Virus record (IMG/VR): IMGVR_UViG_3300034108_000524
Location: 1-24,751 of that record
Strand: one strand, 5' to 3'
Length of the DNA stretch: 24,751 bases
Source: a virus
Below the pieces are notes generated by a model. The model did not search any database, was not told the DNA's origin, and saw only the letters and a program-made list of their open reading frames with translations. Position numbers and translations under genes: made by a program. This document shows, in pieces, positions 873 to 24,434 of this stretch. The number at the start of each line of letters is the position of its first letter. The first letter of the stretch is position 1.

Positions 873-880
873 TATAAATA
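873..880 (-). promoter_or_regulatory. Candidate late promoter of the minus-strand RHH gene
   Basis: The minus strand reads AATATTTATAAT, with the octamer TATTTATA ending 34 bases before the ATG at 838. On the plus strand it reads TATAAATA, identical to the T4 late -10 core. Its orientation relative to its gene matches the motif at the plus-strand genes. An 8-bp inverted repeat, GAATATTT (854-861) and AAATATTC (876-883), overlaps it and could be an operator. Confidence 0.5.
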
Positions 881-917
881 TTCATTAGAAAGTAAAGTAT
901 TTTGTTTTTTTCTGCAA

Positions 918-925
918 TATTTATA
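918..925 (+). promoter_or_regulatory. Candidate late promoter of the tail sheath gene
   Basis: TATTTATA in the context GCAATATTTATACATAAG, 36 bases upstream of the sheath ATG. It is followed by an A-rich leader (A11, then AGAAAAAAATA before ATG) with no Shine-Dalgarno sequence. No -35 hexamer is apparent, as expected for T4-type late promoters. The same octamer recurs ahead of many genes in the window. Confidence 0.55.
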
Positions 926-961
926 CATAAGAAATAAATTAAAAAAAAAAAGAAAAAAATA

Positions 962-3900
962 ATGGCAACTTCTTCAAACAGTAAAGTTTTCGTTTCACCG
1001 GGTGTCTATACATCTGAGGTAGATTTATCATTTGTCGCACAAAGCGTGGGTGTAACTACTTTAGGTATGGTTGGTGAAACTTTAAAAGGTCCAGCTTTTG
1101 AACCAATTTTCATCAGAAACTATGATGAATTTACAACTTATTTCGGTGGTACATCCCCTGAAAAGTTTATAAATACACAAATCCCAAAATATGAGGCGGC
1201 TTATATAGCTAAGTCTTATTTACAACAATCTAATCAATTGTTTGTAACAAGAGTATTAGGTTTATCAGGATATGATGCCGGTCCTTCTTGGTCTATAGTT
1301 ATAAAAGCAAACGTTGACCAAACAACTGTTGGTTTTAAATGTTTAAGTGCAATAACTGTTAATTGTGTATCTGAGTGTGTTAATTATGAGGACTTTCTTG
1401 TAGAAATTCCTTTCACAGCTTGTACTAACGATATTAGTACGATTACTTTAGACACATCATCAATAGCGATTATTGCGGCAAAACAAAATCTACCATATGA
1501 ACTATTCGATGGAAGTATTTCGTCTTTGGACAATAACATGAAACAACAAATTTTTGATGTTATCAACAATGTTAACCCATATACAGCAGAAACCGATTCA
1601 GTTTATTATTATGGTACAATACCAACAAGTGAATATGATATGTTATCAGGTTACACATCTGAAACAAATGTTTTTGAAGTTAATAATGTAAGTTCTGATT
1701 TAGCAGATTATACTGCACCTCAAAATGACCCTTGGTATTATGCGTTGTTTGACAACGTTGGAAGTGCGGTTTATACAGGTTCTTCATTTTGGACTGTTGT
1801 AACTGATTTAGTTAATATCACACCATTAACGACAACTACAACAAGTAGTACAACAACTACAACTACAAATCCTTGTGTTACACCAACACCTGGTACTACA
1901 ACAACTACAACTACAGCAAAACCAACACAATGTTTTACGGGTAAATTGACAGGTGTATTATACGTTTATTCGGGTACAGCATATACAGATTTTGATGATT
2001 TAGTTATTGCGACTTTACGTTCAAGAGGTGTTGCCAACTATTCTAATGATAATGGTGCGGTATATGAAGTTTCAGGTTCAACTAATATTTATGGTAGTTT
2101 CATAGGTGACGATGTTCAAATGGTTTGTACCGGACAATATTCAGCTTGTACAAAAAATCCTTTTTCAACATTCGGATTAAATATTACAAATATTGATGGG
2201 GATACTTTCTTCTTTGAAACTTCGTTCTTAAATAGTGATGTTAATTATGTAACCAAAGTATTTGGTCAATCTAATTTTGCAAAACCAAGAAAGTCGGTTC
2301 CTTTGTTTATTGAGGAAGTTTATCAAACTCTTTTAACTTATGGATACAGAAAAGGTTATATTAGAGGTTTAAGTTGTGAATTGATTGCTTTACCTGATGC
2401 AAGACAAGGTCTTGACCCAACATCAATTGCATTCTATCTTGAGCAATATCAAACACCTTCTTCACCTTGGGTTGTTTCTGAATTGAGGGGTAATAAAGTT
2501 TATAATCTATTCAAGTTCATGACAATCGCTGATGGTGATGCTGCTAACACAGAAGTTAAAATTTCAATTATCAACATTTCTTTTGATAATGGTACTTTTG
2601 ACTTGTTAGTTAGAGATTTCTTCGATACTGATTCGGCACCAACTGTAATTGAAAAGTTCACTAATTGTAACATGAACCCTAACGATAATAACTTTATCGG
2701 TAAAAAAATAGGTACAAGTAATGGTGAATATGAACTTCAATCTAAATATATTATGGTAGAAATGAATGAAGATGCTCCAATAGATGCTCTTCCTTGTGGT
2801 TTCTTAGGATATACATTTAGAGAATACGCAGGTGCTAGACCACCATTCCCAATATATAAAACTAAATACGATTTCCCTGGTGAAGTTGTATATAACCCAC
2901 CTTTTGGTACATCAACAGGTACTGATGATGCAACAAGAAGTGCGGGTGATAATGTACGTAGAACTTATTTAGGTATTTCTGACACAATAGGTATTGACCA
3001 AGATTTTTACTATTATAAAGGAAAACAATTACCGTTGAATATCTGTACAGATACTACTGGTGATGATTGGGCTTACAGAACTAAAGGATTCCATATGGAC
3101 ATCAACGCAAGTGTAATCACCATTCCAAATGCGTTTGCTACAAGTGGGACACCAGCGTTCTATGTTGGTTCTGCACCATTTACAAGTGACCCTGATAGTC
3201 CTGATAATCCATATTATAGATTATTCGCACGTAAATTCTCATTACTTGTAAACGGAGGTTTTGACGGATGGGATATCTATAGAGAATACAGAACTAACCA
3301 AGATAGATTTGGATTAGGTAAAACAGGTTATTTGAGAGGAGCTTGTGCGTCTCTTAAATACCCAACAGCGACAGGATGGGGAGCATTCAAACAAATATCT
3401 GTAGGTGATAATACTTCAGATTGGGCAAATACTGACTATTACGCTTACAAATTAGGTATTAGAACATTTGCAAACCCTGAAGCGGTTAACATTAACGTGT
3501 TTGTAACTCCAGGTGTAGACTATGTAAATCATTCAGATATTGTTGAGTTTGGTATCGATGTTATTGAAAATGACAGAGCGGATTCAATTTATATCTGTAC
3601 AACACCTGACTACAATATGTTTGTTCCTTCTGCAAGTGATATGTTAGACTTTATTTATCCACAAGAAGCGGTTGATAATCTTGACCAAACAGGAATTGAT
3701 TCTAACTATACTGCAACTTACTACCCTTGGGTATTAACAAGAGATTCTGTTAATAATACACAAATCTACTTACCACCAACAGCGGAAGTTACAAGAAACT
3801 TAGCCTTAACCGATAATATTGCATTCCCTTGGTTCGCAGCGGCAGGTTACACTCGTGGTATCGTAAATGCAATCAAAGCACGTAAGAAGTTAACTCAAGA

Positions 3901-23373: not shown

Positions 23374-23379
23374 AAATAT

Positions 23380-24387
23380 ATGGCAATTAAAAAGAATGAT
23401 TTTAAATCACTTAAAGATAAGTTTTCAACATCTGCAAAATATAAACAACAAAGATTTTTTGATTTAGGTTCTGAGTTTTTGGATGCGGTAGGATTACCTG
23501 GTCCTGCAATTGGGCACATTAATATGTTTTTAGGACATAGTGATACGGGTAAGACAACGGCATTAGTTAAAACTGCGGTAGATGCTCAGAAGAAGGGTAT
23601 TTTACCTGTTTTTATTATTACAGAACAGAAATGGTCTTTTGACCATGCTAAATTAATGGGATTTGAATGTGAACAAGTAGTTGATGAATCAACAGGAGAG
23701 GTTGATTGGGATGGTTTTTATCTATTCAACAATAATTTTGATTATATCGAACAAATTACAGATTATATTAATTCAATGTTAGATGCTCAAGAGAAAGGTG
23801 AATTAGATTATAGTTTGTTATTTCTTTGGGATTCTGTTGGTTCAGTTCCTTGTAAAATGACATATGAGGGTCGAGGTGGAAAACAACATAATGCTGCAGC
23901 TTTGGCGGATAAAATAGGTATGGGTATTAATCAACGTATATCAGGTTCACGTAAAGCAGAATCTAAATATGAAAATACTTTAATTATTGTAAACCAACCT
24001 TGGGTTGAGTTACCTGATAATCCGTTTGGTCAACCTAAAATTAAGGCTAAAGGTGGTGAAGCGATTTGGTTAAACTCATCATTGGTATTCTTATTTGGTA
24101 ATCAAAAAGGTGCTGGTACAACTAAAATTACAGCAACTAAAGATAAAAGAACAATTAAATTTGCATCAAGAACAAAAGTTTCTGTTATGAAGAATCATAT
24201 TAATGGTCTTGGATATGATGATGGTAAAATAATAGTAACACCACATGGATTTATCGCAGGTAAAGATGCAACAGAGGAAAAAACAAATATAGAAAAATAT
24301 AAGAAAGAATACGCTGATTATTGGAAAGAAATTATTGGAACTGATGGTGACTTTGTTTTAAAAGAGGAAAAAGAAGATAATGAGTAA
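23380..24387 (+). CDS. uvsX: UvsX-like RecA family recombinase
   Basis: Encodes 335 residues, against 391 in T4 UvsX. The Walker A motif GHSDTGKT is at 52-59 and the Walker B motif LLFLWDS at 146-152. RecA-type elements are visible: KTAVDAQKKGILPVFIITEQ with the catalytic E82 region, an L1/L2-like part (ADKIGMGINQRISGSRKAES), then NTLIIVNQPWVEL and KAKGGEAIWLNSSLVFLF. The protein forms ATP-dependent filaments on ssDNA and catalyses strand exchange for recombination-dependent replication and repair, working with the ssDNA-binding protein encoded upstream. The C-terminus is acidic (KEEKEDNE), as in many RecA proteins. The gene follows the glycosyltransferase gene by 6 bases and probably shares its transcript. 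Confidence 0.92.
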   Translation: MAIKKNDFKSLKDKFSTSAKYKQQRFFDLGSEFLDAVGLPGPAIGHINMFLGHSDTGKTTALVKTAVDAQKKGILPVFIITEQKWSFDHAKLMGFECEQVVDESTGEVDWDGFYLFNNNFDYIEQITDYINSMLDAQEKGELDYSLLFLWDSVGSVPCKMTYEGRGGKQHNAAALADKIGMGINQRISGSRKAESKYENTLIIVNQPWVELPDNPFGQPKIKAKGGEAIWLNSSLVFLFGNQKGAGTTKITATKDKRTIKFASRTKVSVMKNHINGLGYDDGKIIVTPHGFIAGKDATEEKTNIEKYKKEYADYWKEIIGTDGDFVLKEEKEDNE

Positions 24388-24399
24388 AAAAAGTTATAA

Positions 24400-24434
24400 T
24401 ATTTATACTTTTTATAATTTATTAGATATTTATT
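24400..24434 (+). promoter_or_regulatory. Tandem candidate promoters of the second RHH gene
   Basis: An exact TATTTATA at 24400-24407 and a one-mismatch TATTTATT at 24427-24434 occur 27 bases apart, the second ending 3 bases before the ATG at 24438. The first would give a short leader, the second a leaderless transcript. The region is very AT-rich, so chance is a concern. Confidence 0.4.

Follow-up and report, generated by a model that had tools for sequence, protein, structure and literature searches.

Late promoters of T4 and its relatives

The late promoter of phage T4 has no -35 element; it is a single 8-bp box followed by an AT-rich stretch (PMC2988020). In silico late boxes of KVP40, 44RR, S-PM2 and Aeh1 are described as being very like, or near relatives of, the T4 consensus, with the Aeh1 box departing from it at -13/-12 (cited in PMC2988020). 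For the Far-T4 phages, which have Rhodothermus phage RM378 as a group reference, the 2015 survey of Roux et al. detected no T4 core transcription-regulation genes (PMC4360716). Here we consider a 24,751-base linear fragment of a virus record in IMG/VR (IMGVR_UViG_3300034108_000524), referred to in its whole length as the window, where an earlier note had described the octamer TATTTATA ahead of most transcription units. We put at roughly three in four the probability that its inner heptamer, TATTTAT, is the core of a late promoter read by a phage protein, designated gp55L, the two forming a T4-like pair with a changed preference at -9/-8 and often giving leaderless mRNAs. No prior report of a TATTTAT promoter was found in the literature searched, which covered few subscription journals.

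The window has 30% G+C and carries genes for tail sheath, tail tube, baseplate, a single-stranded DNA (ssDNA)-binding protein and a UvsX-like protein, the last with 43% identity to UvsX of Flavobacterium phage immuto. A megablast search of the window against phages gave zero matches; among viral contigs, the relatives of its sheath and tube proteins number in the hundreds. Four long relatives (G001-G004, 156-322 kb) were included, and the proteins nearest to the G001 major capsid are those of metagenomic phage LR756508, Mel-JY01 and immuto, followed by RM378. The motif-bearing phages are a large group of mostly uncultured, distant T4 relatives, and their hosts are probably Bacteroidetes. They share T4-like structural genes with the Far-T4 phages (PMC4360716; RM378; marine Bacteroidetes Far-T4, PMC7198788), but where the 2015 survey was without transcription-regulation core genes, a candidate gp55-like gene and a predicted late promoter were found here.

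The sense-strand heptamer

Counted over the whole window, TATTTATA shows no enrichment, with 9 occurrences against 7.43 ± 2.63 expected and, allowing one mismatch, 124 against 134. Such counts mix spacers with coding DNA, and since the raw octamer count is not above chance, it is position and strand that carry the claim. Of the 13 window spacers of at least 20 bases upstream of genes, nine have TATTTAT in sense, compared with 1.41 ± 1.08 in dinucleotide shuffles, none of 2,000 reaching nine. Only two antisense cases occur in the window spacers, and these are the two faces of the divergent spacer 839-961.

The related set comprises 107 non-redundant loci with 535 same-strand spacers; homologous spacers are not independent, so weighting by gene family was added. 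The relatives were collected via sheath, tube and gp55L, a bias toward late regions that is offset by the long contigs and the cultured genomes. In this set TATTTAT is the most sense-biased 7-mer of all (413 sense against 61 antisense), which bears out the strand consistency originally proposed. The motif of the single reverse gene of the window follows the orientation of that gene. The corresponding counts are 260 to 25 for TATTTATA and 113 to 1 for ATATTTATA, and with family weighting TATTTAT is found in sense in 50% of 278 gene families and in antisense in 10%. In the four long relatives the heptamer ranks first among 7-mers in G001 and G003 and second in G002 and G004, at densities of 4.3-8.0 per kb in sense spacers versus 0.2-0.3 per kb in the coding sequence of these four. 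It is also enriched in two cultured phages, at 33:11 in the complete genome of immuto and at 11:3 (of 18) in the structural region of Mel-JY01. All the sites listed in the earlier note upstream of transcription units exist, and its one-base variants all keep TATTTAT. The motif is real, but the conserved unit is the heptamer with A preferred before it; the octamer is not fixed.

Set in the same orientation, this motif and the T4 late box (TATTTATA/TATAAATA) agree at six of eight bases and differ only at -9/-8, where T4 has AA and these phages have TT. Calling the motif a mirror of the T4 promoter is misleading and says nothing about function, because the reverse-complement relation comes from the TATnnATA frame. 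At 244 TATnnAT sites the family-weighted counts at -9/-8 were 160 for TT and 24 for AA, and the T4 consensus TATAAATA itself has 25 sense occurrences in the 535 spacers versus 260 for TATTTATA, so these spacers do not follow the T4 consensus. The boxes of KVP40, 44RR, S-PM2 and Aeh1 are described as close to that consensus, whereas here the central two bases are changed. In the T4 late region, taken as a control, TATAAATA was present in sense in 12 of 54 cases and TATTTATA in 6; TATAAATA was not atop the 7-mer ranking, probably because the upstream segments took in coding sequence.

Promoter geometry and gene classes

The TAnnTTTG box of the flavobacterial primary sigma covers -12 to -5, and leaderless mRNAs are rare, at 5.5%, in the one host flavobacterium measured (PMC9723704). 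In the early blocks of G001-G004, a host-type -7 box ends exactly 4 nucleotides (nt) before the ATG in 27 genes, which, given this span, places +1 at the A of the ATG; the early mRNAs with this register are predicted to be leaderless. With genes called by a simple longest-ATG rule for open reading frames, and distances thus depending on the chosen start codon, TATTTAT ends 4-6 nt before the ATG in 80 genes (peak at 5) and never at 0-3 nt. This register matches that of the host box and puts the first T at about -12. Other sites fall into distance classes of about 13-18 and 31-45 nt. The TATAAATA sites of the T4 late region are 14-28 nt (one 73 nt) from the ATG, whereas many of the units considered here would be leaderless or nearly so.

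The lack of a -35 partner, noted earlier, holds in the family-weighted logos: no such element is seen at TATTTAT sites, with information at -36 to -30 below 0.07 bits, and the host-type leaderless set clearly shows TTG at -33. In the TATTTAT logo, A stands at -13 and again from -1 to +2, and a patch weakly rich in A/T is seen around -28 to -26. The promoter of the Bacteroidetes primary sigma (-33 TTTG, -7 TAnnTTTG) is alike in its register to the start and is found in the early blocks of these phages, but its TTTG and -33 element are missing from the late motif; judged by TTG at -33 and TAnnTTTG at -7, the early-block genes have this promoter and the TATTTAT sites do not. From its position, strand and register, TATTTAT is very probably a promoter.

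That it marks late (virion) gene units is supported by the families in which it is found. TATTTAT-positive spacers make up 94 of 94 for the tail tube, 78 of 96 for the sheath, 10/10 for head completion, 3/3 each for TerL and the protease, and 81/81 and 56/56 for the families of the window genes at 7041 and 8985 (w7041 and w8985). Upstream of primase (0/3) and of the ssDNA-binding protein (0/5 homologues) it is absent. The latter gene had been singled out in the earlier note as lacking the motif and having a different promoter, and both statements stand: in the window its start at 21548 is preceded by a predicted TTGAC-N18-TATACTTA promoter at 21493-21523 (+), and TTGAC-N18-TATA is found with the same spacing in the window, G001, G002 and G003, replacing TATTTAT in four of the five homologues. 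A third promoter class, TTGAC-N18-TATAYTTW, may be present upstream of replication genes, including some primase genes; a loose pattern for it gave 58 sense versus 26 antisense occurrences. In G001, the operon at 93-109 kb that ends in gp55L is without TATTTAT, and several genes in the small-gene blocks at 155-168 kb have host-type TTG/TAnnTTTG promoters instead. Over G001-G004, host-type and TATTTAT spacers tend toward mutual exclusion (9 with both, Fisher p = 2.7e-6).

A candidate late sigma

The T4 late sigma family (PHROG 234) gave weak matches (E 3e-4 to 5e-3) to one protein, of 234-249 residues, in five contigs of the long relatives. This protein, gp55L, has 232-249 residues overall, and further copies were taken from 61 non-redundant loci. 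Its neighbourhood is the same in the 12 loci displayed, with genes of 354 and 269 codons directly upstream, and PhoH was the only named product in a PHROG scan of its neighbours. A search for a gp55-like sigma gene had been among the checks proposed, and besides the long relatives both cultured relatives examined have one: in immuto it is KNV73_gp118 (E 8e-17, 23% identity to the G001 copy) and in Mel-JY01 it was matched at E 2e-14, with both proteins annotated as 'hypothetical'.

Against a profile of eight gp55 sequences, gp55L aligned over region 2 with an hhalign E-value of 8.5e-6 (probability 83%), and with a larger but narrower alignment the E-value was 9e-5. In its AlphaFold2 model (predicted local distance difference test 74, predicted TM-score 0.40), residues 29-136 match sigma region 2 structures (VIA-align: Z 8.4, root mean square deviation 3.3, 94 residues aligned). 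Since helical models often give comparable Z values, the fold match draws its weight from the top rows, nearly all of which are sigma factors, and not from Z. Foldseek found no significant match to the model (best E 0.86, a sigma), a profile search of PDB sequences gave chance-level matches only, and PHROG 12791, another late sigma, matched nothing in any searched record. Pfam gave no match to gp55L and no region 4 was found; residues 159-248 of the model are C-terminal helices, and with this extra helical part gp55L is about 60 residues longer than T4 gp55. We regard gp55L as a putative, divergent gp55-like sigma with remote homology over sigma region 2. The suggestion of a dedicated sigma or co-activator with an altered -10 preference is plausible as regards the sigma, for which a gp55-like candidate gene was found; neither a T4-type co-activator (gp33) nor a clamp (gp45) was detected, and the link from motif to sigma is one we infer.

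A 193-residue 'gp55-like' match in G002 was rejected as an extracytoplasmic function (ECF)-type sigma that is not gp55L. The whole gp55L/phoH operon is missing from G002, a contig that is probably incomplete in this region. G002 has an extra ECF-type sigma gene (G002:C1:17573-18151, -) that is preceded by a ATATTTATA late box, whose heptamer stops 5 nt short of the ATG.

The Microcystis phage Mel-JY01 (PP395634.1; L316, positions 140001-190000, and L315, 1-50000) has Bacteroidetes-type TTG/TAnnTTTG promoters near early-region start codons, as well as TATTTAT in its structural region and gp55L. Its recorded cyanobacterial host is doubtful.

Proposed mechanism and alternatives

The motif, its strand and position, the gene classes and the sigma-like gene are directly visible in these genomes. 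In the mechanism that we propose, TATTTAT, usually in the form (A)TATTTAT(A), would be the -10-like core (roughly -12 to -6) of a late promoter specific to these phages. To this promoter gp55L would direct RNA polymerase, presumably that of the host, using its sigma region 2 to act on only the -10 box, with no -35 contact. Early genes would be driven by host-type TTG/TAnnTTTG promoters, then replication genes by promoters like the TTGAC-N18-TATAYTTW of the ssDNA-binding gene, and finally gp55L, from the phoH-containing operon, would activate the TATTTAT promoters of the head, tail and lysis units. Transcription of many late units would start at the AUG or a few bases off, giving leaderless or very short-leader mRNAs. 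The reading of TATTTAT by gp55L, the timing and the start sites are predictions. The T4 system of gp55, gp33 and gp45 is alike in having a TATA-like 8-bp box with no -35, which lies about a helical turn ahead of the start (here a predicted one) and is AT-rich just downstream, in the placing of this box before virion genes, and probably in a phage sigma that is essentially region 2.

Several observations weigh against the pairing of gp55L with a late TATTTAT promoter. The class is not purely one of virion genes, as DnaB helicase has TATTTAT in 4/4 cases. The major capsid gene spacer is without it in 3/3 relatives. In immuto TATTTAT (33:11) is weaker than ATATTTA (36:2), and the A-rich stretch at +1 coincides with an A-rich translation signal in short-leader units, which makes this part of the logo ambiguous. 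The homology of gp55L to gp55 is remote, and its model is of moderate confidence. A search for gp33 (PHROG 254, E up to 1) found none in seven records while recovering that of T4, although a diverged gp33 would escape it, and gp45, searched for by its N-terminal family only (PF02916), was unmatched in 11 records and found in T4. Immuto has DNA polymerases of family A together with a DnaB helicase, so T4-style clamp activation may not apply. A bolder version, in which these phages are an uncultured T4-like branch with a diverged gp55, a TT-for-AA box, no clamp or gp33 co-activation and largely leaderless late mRNAs, we offer as a tentative and rather doubtful possibility.

The alternative that survives best, though we consider it unlikely, is that the promoter is read by another phage sigma, 'sigB', an RpoD-like protein of about 270 residues with regions 2 and 4. 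Genes of this type occur in 7 of 10 long contigs, the protein resembles primary sigma factors, with SigA as its best match in the PDB (E 7.5e-47), and a host-type promoter precedes sigB or its operon in G002, G003 and G004, as an early regulator should have. However, use of a -35 would be expected of any sigma that has region 4, and TATTTAT sites have no -35; the complete genomes of immuto and Mel-JY01 contain no Sigma70_r2 protein, yet have the motif; as both also have gp55L, the latter is the better candidate. The sigB loci are G002:108762-109586 (-), G003:301298-302098 (+) and G004:142385-143185 (+), and their role may be in middle-gene expression.

Less probable again is that the late promoters are read by the primary sigma of the host, with its preference re-tuned by a co-activator from the phage or by modification of the polymerase. 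The T(-12)A(-11) and the register are common to TATTTAT and the host box TAnnTTTG, but the late units are without the TTTG and the -33 TTG of the host, the two kinds of spacer are largely separate, and a sigma-like gene is already available in these phages. It is very improbable that the motif is a signal for translation or mRNA processing rather than a promoter: one peak lies at 13-18 nt before the ATG, close to where translation in Flavobacterium is helped by adenines (PMC6847099), but there are several distance classes and a hard cut-off at 4 nt, and the motif is near-absent inside coding sequence and absent at genes with host-type promoters, which also need translation. Chance in an AT-rich genome, against which the earlier note had cautioned and with which the whole-window counts agree, is a negligible prospect, given a spacer- and strand-specific enrichment far above shuffles and repeated across many gene families and genomes.

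Motif sites in the window

All promoter cores given here are predicted. The tail sheath gene (962-4321, +; PHROG 23, E 1.7e-52) is preceded by TATTTATA at 918-925 (+), and the tail tube gene (5325-5813, +; PHROG 4542, E 7.4e-26) by TATTTATA at 5274-5281 (+); both are late virion genes 3' of the motif. Between them, TATTTATA at 4379-4386 (+) lies 7 nt upstream of the ATG at 4394, and a near-leaderless transcript is predicted for this gene, in whose family TATTTAT is found in 54 of 95 spacers at a median distance of 4.5. The gene at 5895 has TATTTAT at 5847-5853 (+; one-base octamer variant 5847-5854) and a weaker second candidate, TACTTATA, at 5883-5890. Similar one-base variants, 7017-7024 and 8964-8971, contain the heptamers at 7017-7023 (+), for the gene at 7041, and at 8964-8970 (+), for the gene at 8985, which encodes 1650 residues. 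The gene at 20621 has TATTTATA at 20600-20607 (+), and 5/5 of its family have the motif.

Two Arc-like repressor genes, 674-838 (-) and 24438-24623 (+), both have the late motif upstream. The first (PHROG 582, E 1.6e-4), the sole reverse gene, has TATTTATA at 873-880 (-), in the gene's own orientation and 34 nt upstream of its start at 838, in a spacer common to the sheath gene. Its family has 74 members among the loci, with TATTTAT in sense in 67 of 73 spacers at a median distance of 36. The second has TATTTATA at 24400-24407 (+), 30 nt upstream, and a further TATTTAT at 24427-24433 (+; one-base octamer variant 24427-24434), 4 nt upstream of the ATG at 24438 and thus in the leaderless register.

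Implications

How these abundant phages are transcribed was left open by the 2015 Far-T4 survey (PMC4360716). With a motif and a candidate sigma in hand, the question is directly testable in the cultured phage immuto on Flavobacterium sp. LMO8. TATTTAT also offers a simple rule for calling late units and for classifying uncharacterised genes across many metagenomic contigs. If the proposed pairing of gp55L and TATTTAT is true, the gp55 family would include a natural case of changed specificity, and leaderless mRNAs would probably be produced in abundance by these phages.

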